Assembly: GCA_023382655.1 (NCBI GenBank)
Contig: JAHDWK010000019.1
Location: 62,001 to 126,000, forward strand
Source: Anaerolineae bacterium
Lineage (GTDB): Bacteria > Chloroflexota > Anaerolineae > Promineifilales > Promineifilaceae
Length of the DNA: 64,000 nt
Direction: 5' to 3'
The first letter of the stretch is position 1. Each line of letters starts with the position of its first letter. Of the stretch, positions 30,885 to 53,440 are shown in pieces. Position numbers and translations under genes: made by a program. The notes below the pieces were generated by a model. The model did no database searches and was not told the origin of the DNA. It was given only the letters and a program-made list of their open reading frames with translations.

Positions 30885-30897
30885 CGGTTTTTTATGA

Positions 30898-31758
30898 TTA
30901 GGCGCCGACACGTTGGATGCGGGAACGTGGGTCCAGATATTCGCTGATGCTGACAGAGAGCCAGTACAGGGCGATAAAGAGGAGAATAGAGAGAACCACA
31001 GGGGTGAGCAACCACCACCAATAACCAAGCATAACCGCCTGATAACTGAGCGCCCAGAAGATCATGGTGCCCAATGTGGGAATGTCCAGATTGACCAAGC
31101 CGAGAATGGCAAGCGTGATTTCCAGCGAAATGGCCCAGGCCATGACGTTGATCAAGGTAGCAAACACCAGAGGGGTGATAAAGGGCATATACTCTTTCAT
31201 TACCAGACGCATGGTACCGGAACCAGAGAGCACGGCCGTTTGCGTAAAACCGCGCTCACGCAAACTCAAAATCTCTGACCGGATAACGCGCGCGTCCCAG
31301 GCCCAACCCAGGCAGGCCAACATCAGCCCCAATGTAAATAAATTCATGGAATCCCGCACCAGCATCGCCAGCAGGACAATGATTAAAAAGAGCGGAATGA
31401 CAAGAAAACTATCCCCAATAAACATGAAAACCCTATCTGTCGTCCCCCCTTTGTATCCGGCGAGCAAGGCTACAGGTACGGCAATCATGCGGGAAATTAA
31501 ACCGGCGACCAAAGCGATAGTCAGAGAATTACGCACCGCAAACGTCGCTGTCCAGAAGATATCTATACCTCTGGAATCAGTACCCAGCAGGTTCGTTGAC
31601 GATGGCGACAAGTCCCTGGGAAAGGTCCCCCACATAGTCGGGTCGTGGGGCGCGAAGAAAGAAAGGCCGGCAAAAAACCCGAGGATAACCACGATGGTAA
31701 AACTCCAGCGGAACCGGAAATCTCTGAAAAGGTCTCTGAACACATTCATTTGGCCCAT
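30898..31758 (-). CDS. ABC transporter permease (DppC/OppC type)
   Basis: A 286-residue permease with a cytoplasmic N-terminal helix, then FFAGLSFFAPHDPTMWG and about five further helices. The ATPase-contact loop VLSGSGTMRLVMKEYMPFITPL is present, and LGTDSRGIDIFW is typical of OppC. An alternative start lies at 31749. It is the partner of the DppB-type permease. Confidence 0.88.
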   Translation of the reverse strand: MGQMNVFRDLFRDFRFRWSFTIVVILGFFAGLSFFAPHDPTMWGTFPRDLSPSSTNLLGTDSRGIDIFWTATFAVRNSLTIALVAGLISRMIAVPVALLAGYKGGTTDRVFMFIGDSFLVIPLFLIIVLLAMLVRDSMNLFTLGLMLACLGWAWDARVIRSEILSLRERGFTQTAVLSGSGTMRLVMKEYMPFITPLVFATLINVMAWAISLEITLAILGLVNLDIPTLGTMIFWALSYQAVMLGYWWWLLTPVVLSILLFIALYWLSVSISEYLDPRSRIQRVGA

Positions 31759-31766
31759 TCCATTTG

Positions 31767-31813
31767 GTGGCAGGTAGCAGGTACTTGCTACCTGTCACTT
31801 GCCACCTGTCACT
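31767..31813. repeat. Word-hairpin (GGCAGGTAGCAGGT type)
   Basis: GGTGGCAGGTAGCAGGTA words are followed by TACCTGTCAC and TTGCCACCTGTCAC words in the gap between the two permease genes. Pairing is imperfect but clearly inverted. Confidence 0.5.
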
Positions 31814-31829
31814 TATTACCACATGGCCA

Positions 31830-32837
31830 TTAGCTATATCGAATCCGGGGATCAAACAAGGGATACGTCAGGTCTATTATCAGGATGGCGGTGGTAATAC
31901 CCACAATCGAAAAAACGGTAATACCCATGATCAGGTTGTAATCTCCGGTAAGGATGGCATTATAAAGGAGAGTGCCAATTCCTGGATAAGAGAAAACAAT
32001 TTCAACGATGAGCGCGCCGCTGAAAATCTGCCCCACCAATAGCGCCAGTGCGGTGATCTGCGGCAACATACCATTGCGAATAACATACCGCGAGACAATT
32101 TTGCTTTCGTGAACGCCCCCCATCTTGGCATATTGCACATAATCGGCCGAATTGACATTTTGCACGACCAATTTCATCGTTTGGAACCAGGCCGTCGTGC
32201 CCAGCAAAATGAGGGACAAAGCGGGCAGGAAGGCATGTCTCAACACATCATAGATATATGCCGAACTGAAAGACGGCTGTCGTCCAATGTCCGTGCCCCC
32301 GGCAATAGGGAACCATCTCAGAACGTAGCCAAATAACAGCAGCAAAGCGAATGCAAAAATGTAATACGGCATAGGCCGGATGATCATCGCGCCGGCATCC
32401 AGCGCCCGCGACCAGCGCGTACGGTTGAAATATCCGGCCAATCCCCCCAGAAGTATGCCCAAAGTCCAGGCAATAGCCGTTGTTGTTACCAACAAACCTA
32501 ACGTCCAGGGCATTGCCGTTCTGATCATCTGGTTTACCGGCGTAGGAAATTGAAAAAACGAGACGCCAAAGTCCCCTTGAAACAGTCTTATCCAAAACGC
32601 CTTGTATTGATCCAGGGTTGAGCCTTCCAACCCATATAATTCGGTGAGGTCTTCAATCATCTCATCAATCGTCCCGGGGTCTAGCGTGGAGCCACGCGCC
32701 TCCAATTGTGAGATCGTGCGGCCAACCGGGTCTGTGGGTAATGCACGGGGAATGAGGAACACGGCCGTGATCCCCACAAAGATCACCAGGAAATACTGAA
32801 TCAGTCTGGGTATGAGGTATCTTTTGATAAAGATCAT
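31830..32837 (-). CDS. ABC transporter permease (DppB/OppB type)
   Basis: A 335-residue permease: the N-terminal YLIPRLIQYFLVIFVGITAVFLIPRAL helix, a periplasmic loop (residues about 35-95) and GDFGVSFFQFPTPV, then five helices. The contact loop YAKMGGVHESKIVSRYVIRNGMLPQ is typical. AGGA precedes the ATG. It is separated from the binding-protein gene by a word-hairpin that may set expression ratios. Confidence 0.9.
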   Translation of the reverse strand: MIFIKRYLIPRLIQYFLVIFVGITAVFLIPRALPTDPVGRTISQLEARGSTLDPGTIDEMIEDLTELYGLEGSTLDQYKAFWIRLFQGDFGVSFFQFPTPVNQMIRTAMPWTLGLLVTTTAIAWTLGILLGGLAGYFNRTRWSRALDAGAMIIRPMPYYIFAFALLLLFGYVLRWFPIAGGTDIGRQPSFSSAYIYDVLRHAFLPALSLILLGTTAWFQTMKLVVQNVNSADYVQYAKMGGVHESKIVSRYVIRNGMLPQITALALLVGQIFSGALIVEIVFSYPGIGTLLYNAILTGDYNLIMGITVFSIVGITTAILIIDLTYPLFDPRIRYS

Positions 32838-32876
32838 GGCAATGTCCTCCTCGGCCCTCTGCCTGTGCCCATTGCA

Positions 32877-32921
32877 AGAGTAGGAGAGTTGGAAAGATTA
32901 AATCTCCCAATCTCCTACTCT
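32877..32921. terminator. Word-hairpin after the binding-protein gene
   Basis: An arm at 32877-32899 (AGAGTAGGAGAGTTGG and more) pairs with 32901-32921 with few mismatches, between the binding-protein stop and the first permease. Such hairpins often protect binding-protein mRNA, but this is inference. Confidence 0.55.
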
Positions 32922-32937
32922 CTTAATCTCTAACAAT

Positions 32938-34995
32938 CTACCGGCCTGTTGGTTCCAGGAACGGCGTCATGTACTTAAACGGCCCCCAGTGTGTATATGG
33001 CTGGGTGTAGGGGTTTTCCGCGCCAGGCCAATTGGTCCAGTACGTCTCATCCCAGGCAATGAAGCCAATGTAGCCGAAGGTAGGAATACCCGGCATATTG
33101 ATGACGGCTTCCTTAAGCCCTTCAATGCCCACCGCAATCACTGCTTCCGCGTCAGCGGGGTCTGTTTCCCGCAATTGGGCAATAATAACATCCATCTCCG
33201 AGCTGCTCCAGCGGGATTGGTGCCCTTGATTTCGCTCGCCAAGCGGCAACACATAGGCTGAATTCCAACGGTCCAGGGTGCGGTACAGGTCAGGGCCAGC
33301 GCCCCAGGGTTCCCAACCAGGCCAGGCACCGTTAACGTCGAAGTCGCCTACGGCAACCAGATCAGCATTTGCTTCTGTAGCAAAATGGGAGGCATCAATA
33401 CCAAATTCCCGCCATTGCTGCACGGCCGCAATACAGTTCCGGGCTTGCAGATCGGTCGCCACTTGTGGACCGCTCATACATTCTAGCTCCCAGGGCGTAC
33501 CATCCGGCAGCAGCCACATACCATCATCATCTCTGGAGAAACCGTTTTTGATCAGCAGTTGGTCGGCTACTTCAGGCGCGTAATTGTACCATCCCAGACC
33601 AAAAGCCTTATCCTGAGCAGCCGGATCTTCGGGTACAACATAGCCCCGACCTTGGGCATATTCCACAATTCGCTGTGGCGCATCCGGGTCGTACGGTTTG
33701 AATGTCTCACCATTGCCCAAATCGAGTTCAAAGTCAGCTAACCATTCCTCCATCGGGGCGATGTAATCTGTGGGGTAAGAACCAAGAGAGGGTATGTGTA
33801 CTGGGCTTAAGGTGCCGGCACCGTCAACGGCCGTGCCCATATATTCACCAATGTCAATAGCCAACAGCAATGCCCAACGCACATCGGGATTATCGTACGG
33901 AGGTCTGACTACATTGAAGGTTAAACCCGTTTGTGCCGGATCATTATTGACAACCCAGGGATATCCTTGCTGATAAGCACGAGACGAATCAGACTGGGCT
34001 AGGACAGCCTTCAGCCCTTCCGATGAAAGGTTGACCACATCGGCCTCATGCGTTAATTGAGCCAGAATTTTAGCACCCTCATTAGCAAAGTATTGCAAAA
34101 CAATGTATTGCGGTTTGGGTTCGCCATAGAGGATGCCGGTGGGGCTATTCTGCCAATCTTCCCGTTTCTCCCAAATCGTCCAGAACCCATTTTCATCATA
34201 GCTGTGCAGCTTGTATGGGCCAGTGCCTACGAAGGGATTAAATTCAAAAGCCACAATATCCTCTACGTTTTCAAAAATGTGCTTGGGCATGATCCAGGTG
34301 CTGCCCCAACGGTCGAGGAAGGTGGTGTGGAAACGGGAGTTTGACTGAGTGAGTTCAAACACAACGGTGTAATCATCGGGAGCGGATACGCCAGCAAGGT
34401 TATCGGCGAAGAAAGTATGCCCGTTTAGGCCTTCCGTCGCGGCGAGCGTTTCTGCTGTAAAGACGACATCGGCCGCCGTAAAGGGCGTTCCATCATCCCA
34501 GGTAACACCTTCACGCAGGGGAATTGTCACCTGAGTAAAGTCTTCGTTGTAAATCGGGTCACCTGCGGCCAACCCATTGATGATTTCGCCAGTAGCAAAG
34601 TCCACCGACCATAGCGGCTCGTTGGCCAGGTTTTGCATACCACGATCCCGGTTCTTCCAACCAACCCATTCATTAAAGTTACCAGGGGAACCTGCACGAC
34701 CGGTGAGCATATCCACAATAAGCGTCTGGTTTCTGGGCAGAACACCCAGTACGTCGGGAGCCGGTTCGCTTTCAACTTCGGAAGCTGCGGCCGTTACTTC
34801 CACAACAACCTCTTCAATAATCGTCTCAGTTACCACACGAGTGACTTCTACGGTCTCACCTTCTTCCATCACTGTTTCCGTAACAACACGAGTCACTTCA
34901 ACAGGTTGTTCAACAACACGGGTCACTTCAATTGGTTCACCACTACAAGCGACAAACAAAACAAGAATAAATAACAGGGCGACAATCTTTTTCAT
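32938..34995 (-). CDS. Family-5 ABC solute-binding lipoprotein
   Basis: A 685-residue SBP_bac_5 protein. The lipobox is LVLFVAC (Cys17), followed by a repetitive linker with three EVTRVV copies plus one EVTAAA copy (residues about 20-75). The binding fold includes REGVTWDDGTPFTAADVVFT. The frame opens at 35010; GGAGAG before the ATG at 34995 sets the start. Family-5 proteins bind peptides or oligosaccharides. The surrounding xylanolytic genes and the LacI-type operator at 35089 favour xylo-oligosaccharides. Confidence 0.9.
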   Translation of the reverse strand: MKKIVALLFILVLFVACSGEPIEVTRVVEQPVEVTRVVTETVMEEGETVEVTRVVTETIIEEVVVEVTAAASEVESEPAPDVLGVLPRNQTLIVDMLTGRAGSPGNFNEWVGWKNRDRGMQNLANEPLWSVDFATGEIINGLAAGDPIYNEDFTQVTIPLREGVTWDDGTPFTAADVVFTAETLAATEGLNGHTFFADNLAGVSAPDDYTVVFELTQSNSRFHTTFLDRWGSTWIMPKHIFENVEDIVAFEFNPFVGTGPYKLHSYDENGFWTIWEKREDWQNSPTGILYGEPKPQYIVLQYFANEGAKILAQLTHEADVVNLSSEGLKAVLAQSDSSRAYQQGYPWVVNNDPAQTGLTFNVVRPPYDNPDVRWALLLAIDIGEYMGTAVDGAGTLSPVHIPSLGSYPTDYIAPMEEWLADFELDLGNGETFKPYDPDAPQRIVEYAQGRGYVVPEDPAAQDKAFGLGWYNYAPEVADQLLIKNGFSRDDDGMWLLPDGTPWELECMSGPQVATDLQARNCIAAVQQWREFGIDASHFATEANADLVAVGDFDVNGAWPGWEPWGAGPDLYRTLDRWNSAYVLPLGERNQGHQSRWSSSEMDVIIAQLRETDPADAEAVIAVGIEGLKEAVINMPGIPTFGYIGFIAWDETYWTNWPGAENPYTQPYTHWGPFKYMTPFLEPTGR

Positions 34996-35088
34996 TTTTC
35001 TCTCCATCATTATATGCTAGGCTGATAAGGCGTGGGCGAATAATCAGGTTTATATATCAATCCAATAACACCTCCTCTTGTGACTGCC

Positions 35089-41638: not shown

Positions 41639-42397
41639 TCAGCCGAGGAGGGTTTGGGCGAGCTGTTTAACCTGGTTGGCGATGAAGTGGTCGGGATAGG
41701 CTAGGACGAACACTTTCTGGCTGCCCAACGCCATCATAGAGTCGGAATGGGGCAGCAGGGCGCCCACAGGACAGGCGTATTGGGTTTGCAATTGGGCGCG
41801 CAGGTCACTGAGGGAGATGGATTTGGGAACTTTGTTAGCGACGAGAACCAGATTGGGCACACCTAGTTTGCGCGAAATGCTGACGATCACGGCCGTACCC
41901 TGATAATCCTGGTAATCGGGGCGCAAAATAATCGCTTCCGCATCCGACACACTGACGGACATAAGCGTTTCATTGTTCAGGCCGGGGTGGGTATCAATCA
42001 GCAGCACATCCAGATTTAATACTTCCATCAGCCGCTCGTAGCCATCTACCAGCAGGCCTACATCGTAACCCCTGATCACTTTGGCAATTTCGCTGGCCTG
42101 GGTACGTGAGGGCACCAGGTACAATTTACCACTGAGATTGGGATTGAGTTGGGTGGTGATGTCCATAGCCGCCTGTTCGATTTCACAGTTGCCATGCAAG
42201 TAATCGTTAAGAGCATAAACGGGTGGCGGCGCGTCTTCGCCCAGGCCCAAAATCATGTGGATGCCGGGTGATTGGATGTCGGTATCTACCACGGCGACGG
42301 TTTTGCCCAGGGCGGCGTAGGTAGCCGCCAAATTGGCGGTGGTGTTGGATTTACCGGTTCCGCCGCGATAGGAGTGGACGGAGATGATTTTTCCCAT
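41639..42397 (-). CDS. MinD/ParA-like ATPase 3 with Arg-type Walker A
   Basis: A 252-residue SIMIBI ATPase with P-loop SYRGGTGKSNTTANLAA, switch I VDTDIQSPGIH and Walker B VLLIDTHPGL. The family's deviant Walker A starts KGG; here the signature Lys is Arg. Conserved blocks shared with its two paralogues are RPDYQDYQGTAV, LLPHSDSMMALGS and FVLAYPDHF. A C-terminal helix could contact the membrane, as in MinD, but this is inference. It is the last gene of a five-gene operon and could position or switch a membrane complex. Confidence 0.87.
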   Translation of the reverse strand: MGKIISVHSYRGGTGKSNTTANLAATYAALGKTVAVVDTDIQSPGIHMILGLGEDAPPPVYALNDYLHGNCEIEQAAMDITTQLNPNLSGKLYLVPSRTQASEIAKVIRGYDVGLLVDGYERLMEVLNLDVLLIDTHPGLNNETLMSVSVSDAEAIILRPDYQDYQGTAVIVSISRKLGVPNLVLVANKVPKSISLSDLRAQLQTQYACPVGALLPHSDSMMALGSQKVFVLAYPDHFIANQVKQLAQTLLG

Positions 42398-42410
42398 GAT
42401 TGCGCTCCAG

Positions 42411-42461
42411 AAGTAATTGAGTCATTGAGTAATTGGATAATTACTCAGTTACCCAATTGCA
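42411..42461. repeat. Word-hairpin (AATTGAGTCATTGAGTAATTGG)
   Basis: The left words fill the gap between ATPases 2 and 3. The inverted right words (from ATTACTCAGTTACCCAATT) run into the end of the ATPase 2 coding sequence and encode its last residues NWVTE. The element thus contributes a C-terminus. Confidence 0.5.
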
Positions 42462-43190
42462 TAATTTTTTCAGCACGGCCGTCACCATATCTGCCGGGTA
42501 CTCTAACACAAAGAGGCCGGAACTGCCTAACTGCAACAGGTGGGGGGAATGGGGCAACACGGCCGTCAAATCACAATGATATGCCCTGGCAAACTGCTGC
42601 TGCACGGCCGTCTCGTCGTATTGCGGTGGTGTCTGGTTCACGAGTAACCAGCGCTGCCCCACCCCTAACTGCTGTGCCAATGCCAACAAAATGCCGGTGC
42701 CCTGATAATCTTGTTTATCGGGTCGGGTGATGGCGATGGTGATGTCAGAGACGGCCGTAATCACCTGTGTTTCTTCACTCATGCCAGCGGCAGTATCCAC
42801 CAATAAATAGTCCAGCGCGGCTGTTTCCATGAATTCCTGGCAGGCGTCGGCCAACAGGTAAGGAATGTAACCACCCCGTTCGATGCGCGCTATCTGGGAC
42901 GGCCGTGTGCTGGCGACGACGAGGGTTAATGTGCCGGGTACGGCCGTCTGGCGACTCATATCCACCACACACGCCGCCATGTCACACGCCCCCCACAGGT
43001 AATCGTTGATGGATGCCGGAATCTGGACTTCATCCAGCCCAAACAGCAGGTGCAAACTGGGCGCAGCCAGATTCAGGTCAATCACCCCCACGCGATGCCC
43101 CGCCTGCGCCAGCAGCGCCGCCATATTGGCGGTGAGTGTAGTTTTGCCTGTACCCCGGCGAAAAGAGTGAATAGAGATTAGGAGTGACAT
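42441..43190 (-). CDS. MinD/ParA-like ATPase 2 with Arg-type Walker A
   Basis: A 249-residue paralogue of its neighbours. The P-loop is SFRRGTGKTTLTANMAA, with RRG where the family has KGG. Switch I is VIDLNLAAPSLH, Walker B YLLVDTAAGM. It keeps RPDKQDYQGTGI and LPHSPHLLQLGS. It is the most divergent of the three and carries Leu-Asn in place of Thr-Asp in switch I. Five ACGGCCGT sites lie in it, so its base style is native to this genome. Confidence 0.85.
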   Translation of the reverse strand: MSLLISIHSFRRGTGKTTLTANMAALLAQAGHRVGVIDLNLAAPSLHLLFGLDEVQIPASINDYLWGACDMAACVVDMSRQTAVPGTLTLVVASTRPSQIARIERGGYIPYLLADACQEFMETAALDYLLVDTAAGMSEETQVITAVSDITIAITRPDKQDYQGTGILLALAQQLGVGQRWLLVNQTPPQYDETAVQQQFARAYHCDLTAVLPHSPHLLQLGSSGLFVLEYPADMVTAVLKKLCNWVTE

Positions 43191-43197
43191 GGAATCT

Positions 43198-43239
43198 AGT
43201 AATCCGTAATCCGTAGTTGGTTTACGGATTACGGACTTC
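43198..43239. repeat. Word-hairpin (AATCCGTAATCCGTAG)
   Basis: AGTAATCCGTAATCCGTAG words followed by TTTACGGATTACGGACTTCGG fill the gap between ATPases 1 and 2. It is the same word family as at 7570 and 49232. Confidence 0.6.
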
Positions 43240-43242
43240 GGT

Positions 43243-44001
43243 TTACAAGAACGTATCTACCAGGGCTTTAATTTCCTGACTGATGCGGTGGTCAGGATAA
43301 CGGAGGACGAAGATGTCCTGGCTGGCCAGGGTCATCATTTCGTCGGTATGTGGCAAAATGGCAGCCACCGCACAGCGGTATTTGCTTTGTACCAGTTCCC
43401 GCACCTGGTTAAAGTCATACACGTCTGGCATCTTATTGATGATCAGCCGCATGTCTGGCACTTGCAGTTTACGGGCGACCTCGACGGTCACGGCCGTGCC
43501 CTGGTAATCCTGGTAATCCGGCCGCAATGTGATTAACAGCGTATCGGTAATGGCAATGGAAAGCAGCGTTTCATTACTCAAGCCGGGATGGGTATCCACC
43601 AACAGTACATCCAGTTTCAGCGCCTCGATCAGATCGTCAAAACCATCATTGAGCAACCCCACATCATACCCTTCACGCAGCAGCCGGGAAATTTCGGCCG
43701 TTTTAATGCTGCCCGGCAGCAAATACACCTGACCGGAAATGTTGGGGCCTAAATTGGCTGTGACGTCATGCGCCGCTTCTTGTATCTCACAGTCGCCCCA
43801 CAAAAAATGGTTGAGGACAAAACCGAGATCAGGGTCTTCCAAATCAAAATTAAAAAGCATGTGGATGCCTGGCGAGTTCAAATCGGTGTCTACCACCGCG
43901 ATACGTTTACCTTTCATCGCCAGCGCCGCGGCGATATTAGCGGTGGTATTGGACTTACCCGTCCCGCCCCGGAATGAGTGTATGGATATGATTCGAGACA
44001 T
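43243..44001 (-). CDS. MinD/ParA-like ATPase 1 with Arg-type Walker A
   Basis: A 252-residue ATPase with P-loop SFRGGTGKSNTTANIAA, switch I VVDTDLNSPGIHML, Walker B VLLVDTHPGL and the shared RPDYQDYQGTAV and ILPHTDEMMTLAS blocks. It has the same Lys-to-Arg change at the signature position. Length and blocks show triplication of one ancestral gene. It directly follows the HAMP-GAF gene, so its state is likely read by or relayed from that membrane protein. Confidence 0.88.
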   Translation of the reverse strand: MSRIISIHSFRGGTGKSNTTANIAAALAMKGKRIAVVDTDLNSPGIHMLFNFDLEDPDLGFVLNHFLWGDCEIQEAAHDVTANLGPNISGQVYLLPGSIKTAEISRLLREGYDVGLLNDGFDDLIEALKLDVLLVDTHPGLSNETLLSIAITDTLLITLRPDYQDYQGTAVTVEVARKLQVPDMRLIINKMPDVYDFNQVRELVQSKYRCAVAAILPHTDEMMTLASQDIFVLRYPDHRISQEIKALVDTFL

Positions 44002-44018
44002 AATTCTCCTGGAAGTTG

Positions 44019-44065
44019 GTAGTAGGCGATTTATCGCCTGTCAAGGACGATAAATCGCCTACTAC
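44019..44065. repeat. Palindromic dispersed repeat (GTAGTAGGCGATTTATCG)
   Basis: Arms 44019-44036 and 44048-44065 are exact complements and reuse the word found at 1794-1848. It lies between ATPase 1 and the HAMP-GAF gene. Confidence 0.7.
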
Positions 44066-44072
44066 GAACCGA

Positions 44073-46118
44073 TTACCGCTCCTCCTCTTTGCTCGATTGG
44101 CGACGGCGGCGGATGTCGGCGGCGCGGGCCTGCAAATCCTGGAAGAAGTCAGAATCCACCGTTTCGCTGACCGTCTTTTGTAATTTTGCCTCATCAATTT
44201 CAATGCGCAACTGTTGAATTTCCTGGCGTAGCGCCTGTTCCCGGATATACGCTTCCAGCGCCGCCACGGCCAACGAGGAAAAGGATTCCATCATCTGCTG
44301 CAAATTGGGATCGAAGGGGATAATTTGCCCGGTCTCTGTATCGGTGGCGTTGAGTAGTTGCAGCACACCCTTGACATCACCCAGACTATTTTTGAGGGGA
44401 ATGGTGAGCATGGATTGGGTGCGGTAACCGGTTTGCTCGTCAAAGCGGCGAGGACCACTGAAATCAAATTCGGTAGTGGCGTAAACATCGGGGATATTGA
44501 TGGATTGGCCCATGTGGGTGGCATGGGCAGCGACGTTTTGGTGGTTGGCACGGCCGTGTTCGTCAATCAGCGCCAGCGGTGGAAACGTGACGGCATTCCC
44601 CGTCGTGCCGCCCAACGCAATCTGCTGCGAATCGTTACGCACGATCACAAACTGCAATTTATCATCCTCCGTGCGCAGGTAGAGGCTGCCCGCATCCGCA
44701 TGACAAAAGGTCTTGGCTTCCACCAACATCTTCTCCAACATCCGGTCAAAATCCTGTTCTGAAGAGAGTTCAACACCAATGGGGATGACCACATTCAGCA
44801 AATTATCGGCGCGGTCACGTTCCTGGCGTACCTGGCCCAACGTGGTGCGGAGTTGCCCGGTCATCCGGTTAAAGGTCAGCGCCAACACCCCAATTTCGTC
44901 CGCCGACTCCACCGGCGCTTGCGCCTGCAAATCGCCGCCGCGGATACGTTCGGATACGGCCGTCAGCCGCCCTACCGGTCCCACGATATTCCGCCGGAAC
45001 AGGTAAGCCAACATCACCCCAATCACAATAGCAATCGCGCCAATCGTCAGCGTCAACTGCCGCGACTGTGCCAGACTAAACGTGCCTTCTCCCAATTCGC
45101 GCTGCAACTGAAGCTGTTGACTGGCCGTGATATTTTCCAACAAGCGCAGCATGTCATCCGCCACGGGCAACAGATTTTCCCGAAACAACAACAAATCCTG
45201 CCGCCATTCATCGCTCTCCAAAATAGGGAATACTTGCTCTTCCGGCAGCGTCAGAAAGGCCTCCCGGTTTTCGTTAATGGCGGTGAGTAAGGCCATCTGC
45301 TCGGCGTCAAATTCATTGCGATCCACCCGCCCTTGCAGCCGCGCCCACGCCTGGTCATTCAGCAAGCTGTTGGCAATATATTCGCTGCGATAACTGCGAT
45401 TGCGCGTGGTTGTATAACTACGTAAACCGGATAACATCGCCAGAAACGAGCTTTGAAACTCGGCCAGGTCCTCCAACAAGGGCACGTCCTCAATAGCCGC
45501 TTCACGGGCCACACTATCAATCACCTTTTGCGTGTCCAACAGCACATTACCGGCAAGGGTAGTCCCTTCGGTCGCCACGATCTTATAGGCCGGTTCACGC
45601 GCCAATTGATCATCCCGCAACACAAAAGATTGGTCTGCCCAGTCGGCATAACTCACCAGCGCCACCCGCAATTGCCCCAGCATGGCTAACTGCTCCTGTC
45701 CATTACTACCAGTAGCCGCCAACAATGGCTCCAGGTTGTCCAGGTTTGACTCAAACGCAATCCGCGCAGCCAGATAATCATTGAAGAAGCGTTCATCACC
45801 GAGCGCCAGATAACCGCGCGTGTTAGAAAGCATCCGCAGCAAGTTAGATTCGGCGGCGGCGGCTTCCAGGGCAATAGGCACACGCAGTTGGTTGGTATCT
45901 TCAATCTTTTGGCTGGCGTCGTCACTGCTGAAATAGCTGAGCGCCGCCACCAGCAACGTCAGCAGTACCAGAATAGAAAAGCCAATGGTGAGCTTGCGGC
46001 TGATGGGGATGCGGCGAAAGAGGGAGAAGGTTTGCCGATTGCTTGTTTCCGCCCGCACCTCCACCGCCATTGTCTCCAACACAGGCGCGTCAGGCGTTGT
46101 TTTTTCCGTGTCTATCAT
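44073..46118 (-). CDS. Membrane HAMP-GAF sensor protein without output domain
   Basis: A 681-residue protein: cytoplasmic N-tail, TM1 (43-62, LTIGFSILVLLTLLVAAL), a large helical extracytoplasmic region, TM2 (about 350-370, LTLTIGAIAIVIGVMLAYLF), HAMP (VGPVGRLTAVSERIRGGDLQ), a GAF domain (about 455-600, with ADAGSLYLRTEDDKLQFVIV and GVLQLLN) and a C-terminal coiled coil rich in Arg/Glu. No kinase, GGDEF or methyl-accepting domain follows. The ATG overlaps the previous stop (ATGA), so it is coupled to the binding protein. The coiled-coil tail could engage the ATPases. Confidence 0.85.
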   Translation of the reverse strand: MIDTEKTTPDAPVLETMAVEVRAETSNRQTFSLFRRIPISRKLTIGFSILVLLTLLVAALSYFSSDDASQKIEDTNQLRVPIALEAAAAESNLLRMLSNTRGYLALGDERFFNDYLAARIAFESNLDNLEPLLAATGSNGQEQLAMLGQLRVALVSYADWADQSFVLRDDQLAREPAYKIVATEGTTLAGNVLLDTQKVIDSVAREAAIEDVPLLEDLAEFQSSFLAMLSGLRSYTTTRNRSYRSEYIANSLLNDQAWARLQGRVDRNEFDAEQMALLTAINENREAFLTLPEEQVFPILESDEWRQDLLLFRENLLPVADDMLRLLENITASQQLQLQRELGEGTFSLAQSRQLTLTIGAIAIVIGVMLAYLFRRNIVGPVGRLTAVSERIRGGDLQAQAPVESADEIGVLALTFNRMTGQLRTTLGQVRQERDRADNLLNVVIPIGVELSSEQDFDRMLEKMLVEAKTFCHADAGSLYLRTEDDKLQFVIVRNDSQQIALGGTTGNAVTFPPLALIDEHGRANHQNVAAHATHMGQSINIPDVYATTEFDFSGPRRFDEQTGYRTQSMLTIPLKNSLGDVKGVLQLLNATDTETGQIIPFDPNLQQMMESFSSLAVAALEAYIREQALRQEIQQLRIEIDEAKLQKTVSETVDSDFFQDLQARAADIRRRRQSSKEEER

Positions 46119-47857
46119 GGTCTACGCCTCCATTCGTGAACGTTCCACAGATGTGAATCCCAATCGGTGAGTTCTACCCCCTCAATCTGGTTACTGACGC
46201 CAGACACCCGCGCCCGACTGATGAGGGGAATGACAATACCATTTTCCACCAGCATGTCATTCATCTGCTTAAAAAGTTGTTCGCGCACAGCCGGATCTGT
46301 TTCTGTGACCACCTGGGTATACAAGGCATCATAAACCTCGCTGCACCAGCGAGCCACATTCACCCCCACCCAACTGCCCTCTGTGTCCTGCGGGATGCGG
46401 GCGCATGTCCATTCACGCATATACGAGGTCGGGTCGGGCGTCTGGTTGCCATTGGTAAACATAGGCATGTCAGCTGTACCCGCCCATAAACTATTGGGAA
46501 TCGTGGCGTTCGTGCTAAAAAATTGGCCGCTGACATCCAGTTTGAGGTCAACGCCAATTTCACTGAGGGATTGTTGGATGAGGCGTTGGGTCTCCTGGCG
46601 CAGGGCGTTGGCGCCGGTGCGCAGGGTAAGGGAAAGTTCACGGCCGTTCTTGTCTACAATCCCATTCCCATTGCTATCCGCCCAACCGGCCTGCGCCAGC
46701 AATTGTCTGGCCTCTTCCAGATCATAGGGGTAAAAGTTTTGTTCCGAGCGGAAATTTGCCGGGGCAAACAAGATGGCGTTGGCTGCCGCCCCGGTAGGCC
46801 CGTATAAAGCGGCAATCGCTTCCTTGTCAATAGCCTGGGCAATGGCCTGGGCCACATACAAATTACTGGCATCCGATTCCACGCTTAAAAAGGGATGAGG
46901 CGTCTGGTAAGTGGGATCGTTGGGATCATTTTGGATCAGGGAAACAAACTCCACGCGCCCGCCCAGGCTGTTCATCAACCGCCCTACCCCGTTACCTTCG
47001 GCCACCATGTTGTCCAGCACATCCCCTTCTAATTGCAGGTTGTAGGCAAAATCCACATCACCAAATTGTAAGACAGCGCTGGCAGCTTCCACGGCCGTAC
47101 CACCCCCCTGCATCTCTACCCGCCGAAAATACAATTCATCCGCACCCCGGTAATACGGATTCACTTCATAAATCAGCTTCACGGTTGTCACCAATTCGCT
47201 GCCCAGGAACAAAACCTCTTCCGTGTTGGCCGATACCAATTGGTACGGCCCCGTCCCCACCGATGGCGTTGGCGCATCGCCGGTTTCGGAGAAAATGTGC
47301 CCCGGAATAATCATGCCCTCGGTGCCCACAAAGGGCAGCGCCCAGGCCGGGTTGGTGTCTTTGAAATTGACTTGCACCGTCTGCAAATCTACCACTTCCA
47401 CACTATCCACAGCGTTATAAGTGCTGGCCGTCACTGCCCCTTCACTCTTGATGAAATCGTAAGTGAATTTAACATCATGCGCAGTAAAAGCTCTGCCATC
47501 TGACCAGGACAACCCTACCGGGATGGTCCAGCGCACCCATTTCAGATCGGGGTCAAGCAGGTCATTTTCAAAGCTGGGGATTTCGGCCGCCAACACCGGT
47601 ACCAATTCACCGTCGGCATTAAAGCTGGCGAGGGGTTCATAAATCATTCGGGCCGCGTCCCGGTCGGCGGTAGCGCTGGTCAGGTGCGGATTCACCACCT
47701 GGGGCGCCTGCCACCAAAAGAGCCGCAGCGTGCGATCCCTCAATTCCGACGTAGGAATGACGATGGGGGTAGCAGTGGGTTTGATAGTGGGTTCGGCCAC
47801 GGCCGTACACCCCACCAACAAGAGTAGCAATAGTCCTAAAATACGTTTATTTACCAT
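46115..47857 (-). CDS. Family-5 solute-binding lipoprotein, orphan (no permease)
   Basis: A 580-residue SBP_bac_5 protein. The lipobox is LLLLLLVGC (Cys17), with a Thr/Pro linker and then RTLRLFWWQAPQVVNPHLT, VRWTIPVGLSWSDGRAFTAHDVKFTYDFI and the usual C-terminal lobe. Unlike the xylan-cluster protein it has no DppBCDF genes beside it. It shares an ATGA overlap with the HAMP-GAF membrane protein. A role as extracellular ligand sensor for that protein is more likely than transport, but this is inference. No strong Shine-Dalgarno is visible. Confidence 0.85.
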   Translation of the reverse strand: MVNKRILGLLLLLLVGCTAVAEPTIKPTATPIVIPTSELRDRTLRLFWWQAPQVVNPHLTSATADRDAARMIYEPLASFNADGELVPVLAAEIPSFENDLLDPDLKWVRWTIPVGLSWSDGRAFTAHDVKFTYDFIKSEGAVTASTYNAVDSVEVVDLQTVQVNFKDTNPAWALPFVGTEGMIIPGHIFSETGDAPTPSVGTGPYQLVSANTEEVLFLGSELVTTVKLIYEVNPYYRGADELYFRRVEMQGGGTAVEAASAVLQFGDVDFAYNLQLEGDVLDNMVAEGNGVGRLMNSLGGRVEFVSLIQNDPNDPTYQTPHPFLSVESDASNLYVAQAIAQAIDKEAIAALYGPTGAAANAILFAPANFRSEQNFYPYDLEEARQLLAQAGWADSNGNGIVDKNGRELSLTLRTGANALRQETQRLIQQSLSEIGVDLKLDVSGQFFSTNATIPNSLWAGTADMPMFTNGNQTPDPTSYMREWTCARIPQDTEGSWVGVNVARWCSEVYDALYTQVVTETDPAVREQLFKQMNDMLVENGIVIPLISRARVSGVSNQIEGVELTDWDSHLWNVHEWRRRP

Positions 47858-47870
47858 GGTTTATATTCTC

Positions 47871-47935
47871 GTGATACGTGATGCGTGATGCGTGAAGTTT
47901 CTCCGGTCACGCCTCACGCCTCACGCATCACGCCG
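47871..47935. repeat. Word-hairpin (GTGATGC / GCATCAC)
   Basis: CGTGATACGTGATGCGTGATG words (47871-47894) are followed by CACGCCTCACGCATCACGC words (47910-47935). They separate the methyltransferase stop from the five-gene operon start. The last copy encodes the methyltransferase C-terminus. Confidence 0.6.
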
Positions 47936-48689
47936 CTTTCTCCCCCCAAATCAACAAATAATACGAATGGCATAACATCGGGCCATGTTGTAAATCGGCT
48001 TCCAGGCGGGCCAGCCCCCGCCGCCAGGCCGCCTCCTCAATCAGATGCAGTGAAGAATACGCTTTCTGGCGATACCCGGAAGGGTCATACAACACATACG
48101 GATATTCCGCCATCTTTTCCACAATGTTCACAAATCCCGCTTTCGCCTTCTCTGACAACAATTCGTGGGTAGTGGGATACCGCGCCAGATTAACCGCTAT
48201 GGTTTCTGGGAAATAGGTGGCCAATGGCTCTCGGTGGCTAATGATCCACTCCGAATCCGTCACCGTGCAAACCTTGCCGCCTGGCTTCAACACGCGCATC
48301 GCCTCCTGAAAATAAGTCAGCCGGTGCTGAATATGGTGGCTCACATCCACCGTGTACACCAGGTCAAACGTTTCGTCAGGGAAATCCAGTTGGCGAGCAT
48401 ACCCCATGCGCCACTGGATGCTATTGGCGCGGGGATTGGCTCTGGCTTGAGCCAGCATCTTCTCCGCCGGGTCAAGCCCATAACAAAGAGCGTGGGTACG
48501 GGCCGAAATCTCCATCAGGTAATTGCCCGTGCCACAGCCCACTTCCAAGACCACGCTTTCGGCATTGATACTGCCGCGCGTCAACAAATCCGCCAATACC
48601 GGCGGATCAATTTTGCGGAACTGAGCATACTCATCCGCAAAGGTATTGAAATCTTGTCTCGGTTGTGCGTCTCGCTCTAAATTGGTCAA
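47928..48689 (-). CDS. SAM-dependent methyltransferase, class I
   Basis: A 253-residue methyltransferase of the UbiE/Methyltransf_11 style: motif I VLEVGCGTGNYL, Asp in YGLDPAEKML, motif II TFDLVYTVDVSHHIQ and motif III RVLKPGGKVCTVTDSEW. The substrate is unknown. The reading frame's first usable start is TTG at 48689; no better ATG retains the N-terminal half. It lies between two word-hairpins and seems monocistronic. Confidence 0.83.
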   Translation of the reverse strand: MTNLERDAQPRQDFNTFADEYAQFRKIDPPVLADLLTRGSINAESVVLEVGCGTGNYLMEISARTHALCYGLDPAEKMLAQARANPRANSIQWRMGYARQLDFPDETFDLVYTVDVSHHIQHRLTYFQEAMRVLKPGGKVCTVTDSEWIISHREPLATYFPETIAVNLARYPTTHELLSEKAKAGFVNIVEKMAEYPYVLYDPSGYRQKAYSSLHLIEEAAWRRGLARLEADLQHGPMLCHSYYLLIWGEKAA

Positions 48690-48699
48690 GGATGCATTT

Positions 48700-48728
48700 T
48701 GTAGGGCGATTTGGCAAATCGCCCTACA
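48700..48728. terminator. 13-bp hairpin (TGTAGGGCGATTT)
   Basis: TGTAGGGCGATTT (48700-48712) and its complement (48716-48728) flank a 3-base loop. The right arm overlaps the end of the GNAT gene. It is a shorter relative of the palindromes at 1794 and 44019. Confidence 0.6.
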
Positions 48729-49227
48729 CCTTATCTGGTGGCTTCATATGCTGCACTAAATACACATCCAGCCACTCATCAAATTTGTAACCCACTTCTT
48801 GCAGCAGGCCCACCGTGCGGAAGCCAATGGATTCCACCATGCGGCGACTGACTTCGTTGCCGGCATACACGTTGCCCATGACGGTATGATATCCGGCGGC
48901 GTAGGCTGCCTCCAATAACGCTACCAGCAGCGCCTTGCCAATCCCCTGACCACGATAATTCTGCCGAATGTACTCAGAGGCGATGACAGTACGGCCGTAG
49001 GCCGGCCGATCCGACCACTTACTCACCGAGGCAAAACCCACCACCACGCCCTCATCCTCTGCCACCAAAATGGGGTAGGCGGGCATATGCTGGTGATACC
49101 ATTCTTCCCGGTCGGCCACCGTCTTCGGCATCGTATCAAACGTATTGCGCGTGTACAGAATGGCCTCATTGTAAATCTCCGTAATGGCCGGAATGTCGTT
49201 TGGGGTGGCGGGGCGGATAGTAGGCAT
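48724..49227 (-). CDS. GNAT acetyltransferase, phosphinothricin-acetyltransferase-like
   Basis: A 167-residue N-acetyltransferase. MPTIRPATPNDIPAITEIYN starts the fold. The acetyl-CoA loop is RQNYRGQGIGKALL, and GNVYAGNEVSRRMVESIGF is typical of the Pat/YncA subgroup, which acetylates small amines such as phosphinothricin or methionine sulfone. Substrate unproven. A word-hairpin abuts its start, and no Shine-Dalgarno is visible. Confidence 0.87.
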   Translation of the reverse strand: MPTIRPATPNDIPAITEIYNEAILYTRNTFDTMPKTVADREEWYHQHMPAYPILVAEDEGVVVGFASVSKWSDRPAYGRTVIASEYIRQNYRGQGIGKALLVALLEAAYAAGYHTVMGNVYAGNEVSRRMVESIGFRTVGLLQEVGYKFDEWLDVYLVQHMKPPDKV

Positions 49228-49294: not shown

Positions 49295-52200
49295 TTACTC
49301 AAGTTGGTCAAACACCTTATGCAAGGCGCGGGGATGCGATTTGGTCAGACGGGCCACCTGGTCGGTAGTCTCGCGCAGGCGTTGGCTGAGGACGTTGATC
49401 AATTCCAGCGACAGGTCAGGATATTGGCGGGCCAGGGCAATGAGTGGTTCGCGGCGGAGCGTCAGGGTGAGGGTGTCTTGCAAGGCTAAGGCCGTGTCCG
49501 TGCGCGGGCTGGCGTCAAACAAATTCATCTCGCCAAAATAGGAGTATGCCTCAATGGTCGCCAGCCGGGCCACCACCCCCTTGCGTGATTCCCGCTCAAT
49601 GCTCACCCGGCCCTGCACCACCACATACAACTGGCCGCCCACGTCCCCCTCTTTATAAACCAGCGCATCTTCCGTATAAAACGCCTCCTCACAGACCGAA
49701 GCCAGCACTTTTAACTGGTCAACCGTCATTTCCCGGAAAAAGAGGACTTCTTTCAGGAAAATAATGCGTTCAATAGTAGATAACATCGTACCCTCCTTGA
49801 ATGGCCCGGCCACTTCGGCTACGCTCAGTGCAGGCGTCAACCCCTTCCCCGCCATGCGTTCATTAGCCCGCTGCACCGCCCACCGCACTTCTTCTTCAGG
49901 GGCCAGATTGGCCGCCTGCAACCAGGCCAGCACCCGGGTAATGGGGATACTCTTAGCTACCGCCGGCGGCGGATAATAGACCGTTTCCAGCGCGGCTGGC
50001 GTGGGTGGCGGCGCGGGCCGCGGCGGCGCGGCTGGTGATTCATCAGCCGCCAGGTCTTCCAGCAGGCCGCTGGCGCGGACGGCGCGTTCCCGCCGCGCCT
50101 GCCGGGCATCGGCTGGCGGGCTGCCGGTGGGTGGTAGATTATCGGCAACCGGCGGCGTCTCACCATCTTCGGCGAGCATATCCAGCAAATCGGCGCTGCG
50201 GCGGCGGGGGCGGCTGGTGGCACGGCCGTCCGGGGGCGCAACTTCTTCCGTTGTTAGCGGCGCGGCTGGCGGCATGGGCTGTTGCTGTTGCGGAGCCGTT
50301 TGTTGCGGAGCCGTTTGTTGCGGAGCCGTTTGTTGCGGAGCCGTTTGTTGCGGAGCAACAATAGCCTGCCCAATCTCACTCAGCGCATACACGGCAATCG
50401 AACGCGGCCAGGGGTCAACCGCCAGGTCGGTCGCCAACTTCTCCATCGCTTCGGCGGTGCTGGGAAACTTCATATCCCACATCTCCTGGCTGATTTGTCT
50501 AATTTCCACCAGCGAGGTTTCCGGCTGCACCAGCGGCGCGATCATTTCGGCCGTCTGCGCTGAGGTCAGCGACTCCAACGCCTCTACCGCATTGGCCCGC
50601 GCCCGTTCCACGTCGCTGGCTAACGATTCGCGGATGATGGCTACCGATTCTGGCCGCTGCACGGCCGTCAGCAAAAAGAAAATCTCGTCCAGTAACCGGC
50701 TGTTTTCATTCTGAAATACCGTCAGCAGCACATTCACTGCGGCATAACTTTTAATGGGAGCCAACGCCTCTAAATAACCGACATTTTCGGCAATTTGCAG
50801 CAAGTTCGCCTGAATTTGCGCCGTCACCAGGGGGCCATATTCACGCCGATTGATGCGCCCCAGGATCACAGTCGCCATTTTGCGCAGTTGCGGGTTAGGC
50901 GAATCCAACAGCAGGTGAACAGTGGGGATCACTTTTTTGCCCAGACCGGCCAGGACGGTGACGGCCGTTGCCCGCAACTGTGGGCTGCTGTCACTAAGCG
51001 TTTCCGCCAACAATGGATAAACACGCTGATCGCCCAGCCGCGCTAATGTCACCAGCGACGCCTGGCGGGTACGCTCTACCGGGTCATGCAGATGGTCGCT
51101 CATCGCCTGCGTTACCTGTTCCACCACCGGCGGCGGCATTTTCTGCGTCGAGAACCGTTCCAAAATCAGCGCTGCTTCCAGGCGCACCCGGTCGGAGGTG
51201 TCCGGCAACATCCCGGTGACATTGCCCAGATAACCAACATCCTCCGTTTGTCCTAACGCCCGTAGCGCCGCCGCTCGCTCTACCGGCTCCTCGCTGCCCA
51301 ACATCGTTTGCACCAGCCGCAGCGCTTGTTCCCGCTGCGCCAGGTCGCCATAGCGCAACAGGCCGGGTAAGGCTTGCAGGCGCACGGCCGTGTCCGGGTC
51401 GGCCAACATGCGCGCCGCTGCTGCCAGATAATGGCTGTCTTGCGCACCATCCACCCGTTCCAAACCGGCCAGCGCCGAGCGGCGCACCTGCGGGTCTTCA
51501 TCGGCCAAAAATTCAGCAAAAAAGTCATGCACGGCGGGAACCGGGGCGGCTACTGCCGCCAGAATGTCCAGCACTGCCGCCCGCATATGCGCATCCCGGC
51601 TGCGGGCCACATCGGCCAGAATGGGCACAGCCTTATCACCGCCCACCTCGCTGATGAGCGTCACCATAAACAGGGTCAATTCATCACTCTGGCTCTGGTC
51701 CAACCGCTCACGCAGCCAATCCAGCGCCGCCGGGTCTGTTACCGTCACATCCGCCGCCTCCTGCCCCAGCAAGAAGGAGTAATCTTCCTGCTCCAACATT
51801 GTTACCAGGGCGCTGGTATATTGGCGGCTGACGCGCCAGGCGGCCATCAGATAAACGGCCGCGCCCACCACCAGCAGCAACGGCAACACCCAACCAGTAC
51901 CGGTGATAAAGGGCAGCAATAACAACAAACCGCCCAGCAAGGAAGCCGTGGGCACGAGCAGGCCATTGACAAAAGCGCGCGCCCGCCCCTTCATACGCAG
52001 GGGCACGGCGTTGTACAGCAAATTGTCAATGGGGTTGCGGAAGGTGGTGTTCAGCACGTTGGCGGAGAGGTAGGCCAGCGACCCCAGAATGACGATGCCG
52101 GGCGTCAGGGAGAGGAAGATGACAATGAGCAGTCCCCCGGCAATACCGGCCGTACCCACCGGAAAGATCAGGTTGGCATTGTGCAGGCCAATTTTGTTGA

Positions 52201-53101
52201 TGAGGCGGCTGAGCAGAAAGATTTGCACCGGCAGCAGCAGCAGATTGGCCCATCCCTCCAGGTTGCCCAGGAAGGCGGTGGCAGCCAGATGGTCGCCAAA
52301 AACGCCGTCAATGATGCGGCTGCTTTCAAACTTCATCAGCAAGAGCAGCAGGGAGACGAGCAGGGTTGCCAGTGACAGCCAGCGCAGGTAGGGTGAATCC
52401 ATGACGTAGCGGTAGCCTTCGCGCAGGCTGTCGGTAAAGGAGAAGATGGGGGTGGGCACGCCGGCGTTGAGCGTAGCCGCAGTGGCCGTGTCCACCTCCG
52501 CGCGTAATATCACCGGCGACAACCACACCAGGCCGGCCATTACCAGCAACGTGAGCGCCCACAAAGCAATGACTGCCTCGGACGACCCCAACCAGCGCGT
52601 CAGCAAACCGACGCTAAACCCGGCAAATGCCCCGGCCAGCCGCGCATTGGAAGCCAGCACGGGCACAATGCGTTTGGCGGCGCGGGCGTCATAAAAACCG
52701 GTGACATACGTCCACCAATGCAGGTTCAGGATGAAGGGGATGACGGTGAAGAGGGGATAGAGCAAAAACGCGCCGGCCACCTGATACCCGGCAATGAGCA
52801 GATACCAGCCAATGAGTACAGCCGTGGCGCTGCCCAAGGCAATAATCCAGAGGAGACGGCCGTGATTCAACCGGTCCGCAAAGGGGGAGTACACCATCAC
52901 CAGCAGGATGGCCGCCACCCCTTCGACGATGAAGCTGAAACCAAGCCGGTCTACCCCCACCACCTGCCAGAACAACGGCTGTACCGTCAGCTTGCCCCAG
53001 GTAATGCCCGTCACCGCCAGGAATGCCATCAAAAAGAGCAATAAGACACGCGGCCACTCCTCACGGCGGATATTAAAGAGGCGGCTAATGAAAGCGGGCA
53101 T
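49295..53101 (-). CDS. Nucleotide-transporter-like MFS / HEAT-repeat / cyclic-nucleotide-binding fusion
   Basis: A 1268-residue fusion. Residues about 15-430 form 10-12 membrane helices resembling the ATP/ADP antiporter (NTT) branch of MFS. Residues about 450-900 are HEAT repeats (ADEDPQVRRSALAGLERV and similar). A disordered linker carries four APQQT repeats, and the C-terminus (about 1115-1250) is a cNMP-binding domain (EDALVYKEGDVGGQLYVVVQGRVSIE, YFGEMNLFD). The start is set at 53101, where homology begins, although the frame opens at 53254. A -10 box (53109-53114) 7 bases before the ATG and no Shine-Dalgarno suggest leaderless translation. Confidence 0.85.
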   Translation of the reverse strand: MPAFISRLFNIRREEWPRVLLLFLMAFLAVTGITWGKLTVQPLFWQVVGVDRLGFSFIVEGVAAILLVMVYSPFADRLNHGRLLWIIALGSATAVLIGWYLLIAGYQVAGAFLLYPLFTVIPFILNLHWWTYVTGFYDARAAKRIVPVLASNARLAGAFAGFSVGLLTRWLGSSEAVIALWALTLLVMAGLVWLSPVILRAEVDTATAATLNAGVPTPIFSFTDSLREGYRYVMDSPYLRWLSLATLLVSLLLLLMKFESSRIIDGVFGDHLAATAFLGNLEGWANLLLLPVQIFLLSRLINKIGLHNANLIFPVGTAGIAGGLLIVIFLSLTPGIVILGSLAYLSANVLNTTFRNPIDNLLYNAVPLRMKGRARAFVNGLLVPTASLLGGLLLLLPFITGTGWVLPLLLVVGAAVYLMAAWRVSRQYTSALVTMLEQEDYSFLLGQEAADVTVTDPAALDWLRERLDQSQSDELTLFMVTLISEVGGDKAVPILADVARSRDAHMRAAVLDILAAVAAPVPAVHDFFAEFLADEDPQVRRSALAGLERVDGAQDSHYLAAAARMLADPDTAVRLQALPGLLRYGDLAQREQALRLVQTMLGSEEPVERAAALRALGQTEDVGYLGNVTGMLPDTSDRVRLEAALILERFSTQKMPPPVVEQVTQAMSDHLHDPVERTRQASLVTLARLGDQRVYPLLAETLSDSSPQLRATAVTVLAGLGKKVIPTVHLLLDSPNPQLRKMATVILGRINRREYGPLVTAQIQANLLQIAENVGYLEALAPIKSYAAVNVLLTVFQNENSRLLDEIFFLLTAVQRPESVAIIRESLASDVERARANAVEALESLTSAQTAEMIAPLVQPETSLVEIRQISQEMWDMKFPSTAEAMEKLATDLAVDPWPRSIAVYALSEIGQAIVAPQQTAPQQTAPQQTAPQQTAPQQQQPMPPAAPLTTEEVAPPDGRATSRPRRRSADLLDMLAEDGETPPVADNLPPTGSPPADARQARRERAVRASGLLEDLAADESPAAPPRPAPPPTPAALETVYYPPPAVAKSIPITRVLAWLQAANLAPEEEVRWAVQRANERMAGKGLTPALSVAEVAGPFKEGTMLSTIERIIFLKEVLFFREMTVDQLKVLASVCEEAFYTEDALVYKEGDVGGQLYVVVQGRVSIERESRKGVVARLATIEAYSYFGEMNLFDASPRTDTALALQDTLTLTLRREPLIALARQYPDLSLELINVLSQRLRETTDQVARLTKSHPRALHKVFDQLE
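50291..50359. repeat. 15-bp tandem repeat, four copies plus part
   Basis: CGGAGCCGTTTGTTG repeats exactly at 50291, 50306, 50321 and 50336, with a partial fifth copy. It encodes the APQQT repeats in the linker before the cNMP domain. Identical units suggest recent slippage, so copy number probably varies among strains. Confidence 0.85.
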
Positions 53102-53108
53102 GGGGGTT

Positions 53109-53137
53109 AGTATACACGAAAGAAATGGAGCAGGTAA
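53109..53137 (-). promoter_or_regulatory. Sigma-70-like promoter of the transporter fusion gene
   Basis: On the minus strand TTACCT (53132-53137) and TATACT (53109-53114) are separated by exactly 17 bp. The -10 ends 7 bases before the ATG at 53101, so transcription would begin at or next to the start codon. Confidence 0.55.
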
Positions 53138-53440
53138 GGGGCGGGATAAGAGGGTGTACGGCCGTGAAGCAACCAGCAGCGCCTTGTTTTTTGCACGGCC
53201 GTCGTCCGGGCATACAATTGGTTGAGGCGGCCGCAGTCGCCAACCGAAGACCACGCCGGAGCAGGGGTTGGCTTAAGAATTACGCCAAGAATGAGACCTA
53301 TGCTTGTGTGCAGCACTTGAGAGTGAATGATTCTGGATGCGAATAAAGAGCGAATAAGAGAATGAGTAGTGTGAAATGTTTTTGTGTTGCTCCCGTTCAC
53401 TGCTATATTTGCCGTCAATCAGGAGATAGGGGTTATTCTT

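Follow-up and report, generated by a model that had tools for sequence, protein, structure and literature searches.

A 44-residue tail shared by diverse bacterial sensors is paired with Arg-type MinD-like ATPases

Introduction

Receptors that carry HAMP or GAF domains and no output domain are a standing puzzle of genome annotation. One of them lies in the window, a 64,000-nucleotide stretch of an Anaerolineae (Chloroflexota) genome, within a cluster that also encodes a family-5 binding lipoprotein and three MinD/ParA-like ATPases. An earlier note on this DNA had read the cluster as a membrane switch of previously undescribed composition, in which ligand binding outside is relayed to ATPase assembly inside. 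In this study we ask what joins the receptor to the ATPases. The earlier note had overlooked a conserved tail in the HAMP-GAF receptor; such a tail, shared among sensors and matched by an ATPase, provides a testable answer to the puzzle for one large bacterial group. If this answer is true, control by environmental sensors joins the known roles of MinD/ParA ATPases.

Results and discussion

The locus and its presumed operon

The five open reading frames are present on the minus strand at 41639-47857, and the same-strand cluster continues upstream with methyltransferase-like, GNAT-like and HEAT-cNMP genes separated by gaps of 34-70 bp. The features are:

49295..53254, minus strand: NTT-like membrane part, HEAT repeats and cNMP-binding domain, ORF of 1319 aa (Pfam HEAT, cNMP_binding; TM segments)
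48724..49227, minus strand: GNAT-like acetyltransferase, 167 aa, named by eye (gap 34 bp; kept in L062-L064 and L143)
47928..48689, minus strand: methyltransferase-like gene, 253 aa, named by eye (gap 70 bp; kept in L062-L064 and L143)
46115..47857, minus strand: family-5 solute-binding lipoprotein (SBP), 580 aa (Pfam SBP_bac_5, 1e-43; lipobox-like LLLLVGC)
44073..46118, minus strand: receptor with 4HB/CHASE3 outer domain, two TM segments, HAMP, GAF and tail, 681 aa (Pfam; TM segments)
44847..45002, minus strand: HAMP domain of the receptor, residues 373-424 (Pfam HAMP, 1e-13)
44256..44753, minus strand: GAF domain of the receptor, residues 456-621 (Pfam GAF, 7e-9)
44103..44231, minus strand: 44-residue conserved tail LRQEIQQLRIEIDEAKLQKTVSETVDSDFFQDLQARAADIRRRR, proposed ATPase coupler (tail HMM; genome search E 1.8e-18 here)
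43243..44001, minus strand: ATPase A, canonical Arg-type MinD-like, RGGTGKS (Pfam; AlphaFold2 pLDDT 90.5)
42441..43190, minus strand: ATPase B, degenerate tandem copy, RRGTGKT (alignment; conserved in L064 and L065)
41639..42397, minus strand: ATPase C, canonical Arg-type copy, RGGTGKS (alignment; 55% identity to A)

From the SBP gene through the receptor, A and B to C, the intergenic gaps are -4 (the ATGA overlap by which SBP and receptor had been said to be coupled), 71, 52 and 43 bp. The operon probably reaches upstream through the methyltransferase, GNAT and NTT-HEAT-cNMP genes. Indeed, the full order of NTT-HEAT-cNMP, GNAT, methyltransferase, SBP, receptor and ATPases is retained in loci L062-L064 and mostly in L143. 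The 1319-aa protein, whose true start is probably further inside the ORF, has a hydrophobic N-terminal half that groups with NTT/TLC-like transporters in a custom HMM, which was seeded with the window protein itself and its relatives and is the sole basis of the NTT assignment. NTT-HEAT-cNBD fusion proteins are known (Major et al. 2017, PMC5381601) and have the same domain order as the window protein; they are recurrent neighbours of the ATPase in our analysis, and the parts of that account drawn on here mention no MinD-like ATPase.

Downstream of the ATPases, a LacI-type regulator preceded by LacI-like palindromes and a sugar ABC transporter probably form a separate unit. A large imperfect palindrome, TAGTAGGCGATTTATCG...CGATAAATCGCCTACTA, is found at 44002-44072, between the receptor and ATPase A, and short palindromes are also present in other intergenic gaps of the cluster.

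The SBP is a family-5 lipoprotein as first described, and its designation as an orphan holds within its own operon, but not for the surroundings: on the same strand, some 6.6 kb downstream of the cluster at 28886-35010, inspection of the sequence by eye shows another large lipoprotein and what looks like an Opp-like ABC transporter. The receptor contains two TM segments starting at residues 43 and 355 by hydropathy, and Pfam assigns to it a CHASE3/4HB-HAMP-GAF architecture with no kinase, cyclase or MCP domain after HAMP and GAF, in agreement with the earlier reading. SBP5 and 4HB-HAMP(-GAF) genes stand alongside the ATPase in ten non-redundant loci, the window included (in one, L180, the ATPase is non-adjacent), and the combination is retained in the divergent loci L145, L194 and L198, so that the conservation of synteny expected among relatives is indeed observed. 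The window SBP is probably a ligand-binding input, and binding proteins are optional, being one of many kinds of input. A family-5 binding protein is also presented to a 4HB-HAMP receptor in the case of the dipeptide-binding protein and the chemoreceptor Tap; Tap ends in an MCP signalling domain, whereas the window receptor ends in the 44-residue tail.

MinD-like ATPases with a fixed arginine

All three window ATPases match the Pfam models AAA_31, CbiA and ParA, with AAA_31 and CbiA above cut-off, and B is 38% identical to A. As the earlier note had seen, the P-loop Lys is retained in each of the tandem copies (HSFRGGTGKS in A, HSFRRGTGKT in B, HSYRGGTGKS in C), and Arg takes the place of the signature Lys of the form KGGxxGK[ST]. 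This residue, Arg-11, is conserved in 97% of 126 family copies, and its presence in the window is therefore not due to chance; RGGTGK[ST] is found in 154 of 181 distinct copies. The literature searched, an incomplete collection, yielded no paper on the RGGTGKS motif. Arg-11 would contact the ATP of the partner subunit. Should the coupling proposed below hold, the family would represent a natural clade with Arg in place of the signature Lys, the residue used to define MinD/ParA proteins.

The best PDB matches of the AlphaFold2 model of ATPase A are MinD, FlhG and FleN, with TM scores of about 0.8; as modelled, the window ATPases have a MinD/ParA fold. The membrane-bound divisome regulator MinD carries a C-terminal helix that targets membranes and works with MinC and MinE; A ends about one residue past its last predicted helix (239-251). 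FleN/FlhG, a MinD-like ATPase acting on the transcription regulator FleQ, is like them in fold and among the nearest solved structures; it differs by its KGG motif and by having no known sensory tail partners. The curated NCBIfam cut-offs for MinD, BcsQ, ParA and other named subfamilies are reached by none of the window ATPases (best scores 78 bits against the 202 needed for archaeal MinD, and 76.5 against 90 for the KGGVGR variant), which bears out the expectation that they fall outside characterised subfamilies. A FastTree phylogeny that also included nine P-loop proteins from the same genome keeps the family as one group on a long branch; because node support was low and no characterised reference ATPases were included, its separateness rests more on the NCBIfam cut-offs.

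Replacement of the signature Lys has precedents in BcsQ, whose motif is listed as RGGVGTT (PMC9178275), and in McdA, with SGGQGKT (PMC9178275, PMC6328274). BcsQ as listed is also without the P-loop Lys, whereas the window family combines Arg with an intact GTGKS loop, and both BcsQ and McdA have different partners.

An altered-motif copy (RRG, QRG, LRG, ERG, RPG, RQS and HSGTGTS among others) occurs in 28 non-redundant loci, 20 of which also contain a canonical copy. ATPase B is of this degenerate kind, having also lost the first Gly of RGG. The overall pattern is at least one canonical RGG copy, plus a degenerate tandem copy in some lineages, and the three specialised copies proposed earlier are a lineage-specific form of it. 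We would guess that degenerate and canonical copies form heterodimers.

The family is present in 49 of 400 sampled Chloroflexota genomes and in 52 of 298 genomes of Anaerolineae, the class of the window. Outside the phylum, it was detected in 3 of 39 genomes of the taxonomic family containing Contendobacter MAGs, in 2 of 299 genomes of the phylum of these MAGs (one a distant match), and in 3 of 111 genomes of the phylum of a Deinococcales MAG. A 'Pleurocapsa minor' record (L107), considered as a cyanobacterial case, was left out of the count, since its ATPase coordinates are those of G441, in the window's own class; the cyanobacterial name seems to have been attached to an Anaerolineae genome.

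A tail in the place of an output domain

Locus L142 encodes a natural fusion, one continuous protein composed of a cNMP-binding domain, a short coiled coil with the tail, and the ATPase. This fusion drew attention to the stretch that also ends the window receptor. Long N-terminal ATPase extensions in L141, L171 and L182 were rejected as further fusions, since they seem to come from starts placed too far upstream, in a frame that is not coding.

The tail was recovered by an iterated HMM from 105 proteins, spread over 89 ATPase loci; no control locus gave a match below E 0.1. Its consensus, LKQQVQELRIEIDEAKRAKQVAEITETDFFQDLKAKARELRARR, contains one Asp conserved at 98% and one Arg at 99%. The tail ends HAMP, dCache-HAMP-GAF, 4HB-HAMP-GAF, GAF, cNMP-binding and class III cyclase proteins. 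Among 118 distinct proteins it starts 5 residues past HAMP (IQR 5-6), 5 past GAF (IQR 4-9) and 74 past the cNMP domain (IQR 73-74); the median length of sequence beyond the tail is 7 residues. This fixed spacing suggests that the tail occupies the place of the output domain. It does not correspond to a known domain in Pfam or the PDB, where no match fell below E 0.002 and E 0.5, respectively. In an AlphaFold prediction made on an artificial, non-natural read-through of two adjacent L080 ORFs, with the stop taken as Gln, the tail adopts a helix-kink-helix arrangement.

The ATPase fold and the sensor domains are already known. No family library or paper searched, these collections being incomplete, describes the tail, the fixed Arg or the way tail and ATPase are paired, and these appear to be new. 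Nor was a system of the same composition found in the curated families or literature searched, as had been supposed.

Tail and ATPase occur together

Among 298 Anaerolineae genomes, the tail, searched with a profile derived from neighbours of the ATPase, is present in 48 of 52 ATPase-positive and 4 of 246 ATPase-negative genomes (odds ratio 726, p 8e-46; genus level p 7e-30), p-values that overstate independence because the genomes are related. The mismatches are thus four genomes with a tail and no detected ATPase, and four with an ATPase and no tail. A second set of 80 chosen genomes contained 36 with the ATPase, 29 of them other Chloroflexota and 7 from further phyla (Competibacter-type and Deinococcota genomes among them), and 44 relatives of those 7 without it; here the tail was found in 34 of the 36 and in none of the 44. 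Being almost confined to genomes with the ATPase family, the tail points to an undescribed route of signals into the cell.

The pairing is also seen along the chromosome, with 59 of 119 tails at most 10 kb from an ATPase, against about 0.9 expected, and 31 at most 500 bp away. No tail lies inside 9 kb at 51 of 133 ATPase loci, and many of the contigs are short. Remote tails belong to the same kinds of sensors, such as SBP5 with 4HB-HAMP-GAF-tail in L246, and NTT and GNAT with HAMP-tail in L228 and L229. The sensor-to-ATPase link of the switch proposed earlier is therefore strongly supported by the shared tail and by co-occurrence, but the SBP is an optional part of it.

Other partners recur within 9 kb of the ATPase when 133 non-redundant loci are compared with 19 random 18-kb loci of the phylum. 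The tail itself is found near 62% of ATPases against no random locus, a small winged-helix protein near 56% against none, cNMP-binding domains near 40% and HAMP near 39% against two loci each, cyclase near 29% and NTT near 26% against none, and SpoIIE near 9% against one. Members of the winged-helix family also occur as fusions with cyclase, cNMP and GAF-tail proteins; a search of the genome that contains the window detected none at E 1e-6, with only weak matches in L029. STAS, RsbW and REC-SpoIIE genes flank the ATPase in L100, L105 and L111, and SpoIIE is upstream of it in the Contendobacter and Deinococcales loci.

A proposed mechanism and its rivals

The simplest reading is that the tail is a portable coupler, because it replaces an output domain at fixed spacing and accompanies the ATPase in distant lineages where both are rare. 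We give an even chance to the proposal that diverse sensors end in a common tail that docks on and controls an Arg-type MinD-like ATPase, the window being one case of a widespread, undescribed module. The sensors would be membrane receptors (4HB, dCache, HAMP, GAF) or soluble GAF, cNMP-binding and cyclase proteins, all with the helical tail. In the window, the SBP would bind a ligand outside and hand it to the 4HB/CHASE3 domain, and the signal would then pass through HAMP, GAF and a continuous coiled coil to the tail, where other receptors have a kinase or MCP domain. The tail would dock on the ATPase and set its ATP-dependent state, with an effect on ATP turnover, and in this way ligand binding outside could drive ATPase assembly inside. 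ATPases A and C would act on effectors, B possibly joining them in regulatory heterodimers; the candidate effectors across the family are the small winged-helix proteins, class III cyclases with cNMP-binding proteins, NTT-HEAT-cNMP proteins, and STAS/RsbW/SpoIIE partner switching. More tentatively, and a little short of even, these elements may make up a signalling class of their own in bacteria. Its sensors would be interchangeable, all ending in the one 44-residue output tail; this tail would switch an Arg-type MinD-like ATPase, which would stand where histidine or chemotaxis kinases act elsewhere, and in some lineages the degenerate copy would form regulatory heterodimers.

The main rival is spatial positioning, in which a ParC/PpfA-like ATPase would cluster or distribute the sensors as cargo, the tail being its adaptor peptide and signalling taking place elsewhere. 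Positioning would give the same tail-ATPase pairing, and according to the literature ParA/MinD ATPases generally bind a short partner peptide linking them to cargo. Indeed, ParC/ParP in Vibrio and PpfA/TlpT in Rhodobacter place chemoreceptor arrays by means of a ParA/MinD-type ATPase joined to sensory proteins via an adaptor (PMC9178275, PMC5706961), but these are KGG-type ATPases that serve CheA/CheW chemotaxis arrays through a separate adaptor or chemoreceptor, whereas the tail is built into many different sensors. In annotation made without dedicated CheA/CheW models, neither gene was recognised near the ATPase loci, and the MCP domain is absent from the receptors scanned. Evidence against positioning is that soluble cNMP, GAF and cyclase proteins end in the tail too, that its distance from HAMP is fixed as for an output domain, and that the receptors carry no further output domain that could be positioned. 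Positioning is in our view unlikely, while deserving serious attention.

Still less probable, and to our mind doubtful, is that the tail helix serves for oligomerisation or docking with some other shared partner, the winged-helix protein for example, and that the ATPase is tied to the pathway only indirectly. The winged-helix family does co-occur with the ATPase genome-wide (38 of 52 ATPase-positive genomes against 3 of 246 negative, with two of those three matches weak), and L190 encodes its fusion to a GAF-tail protein; however, ATPase presence is matched better by the tail than by the winged-helix protein, and in L142 the tail is fused directly ahead of the ATPase. Finally, a chance arrangement of orphan binding protein, orphan receptor and ATPases, for which no evidence emerged, is virtually eliminated by the gene order retained in divergent loci, the control-locus comparison and the co-occurrence across genomes. 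A role in anti-phage defence was also rejected, since the window proteins gave only partial matches to PADLOC models (PDC-M28B at 44 bits on the ATPases, and the HEAT and cNMP parts of the upstream protein). A tail that couples sensors to the ATPase is thus the reading we prefer.

Further ATPase loci

The window's genome contains a fourth ATPase copy on another contig (L029), where it adjoins a dCache-HAMP receptor also ending in the tail. Next to this locus, at L029:3738-6986 (minus strand), is a LanM-like lanthionine synthetase (DUF4135 and LANC_like) with glycosyltransferases. A 569-aa protein beside the same ATPase, at L029:10353-12062 (minus strand), combines a cNMP-binding domain with a winged-helix part and with an AHAGAGATT stretch that resembles a P-loop but has no Lys, perhaps a dead ATPase. 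At L140:6605-10819 (minus strand), a 1404-aa protein starts with the ATPase, followed by a C-terminal region that by eye is kinase-like and FHA-like. At several Anaerolineales loci, among them L071, L072, L078 and L083, the genes directly upstream of an NAD-dependent DNA ligase and an aminotransferase encode a canonical ATPase and a winged-helix protein; an ECF sigma factor gene is divergent, and a PrsW-cNMP operon nearby contains a second ATPase.
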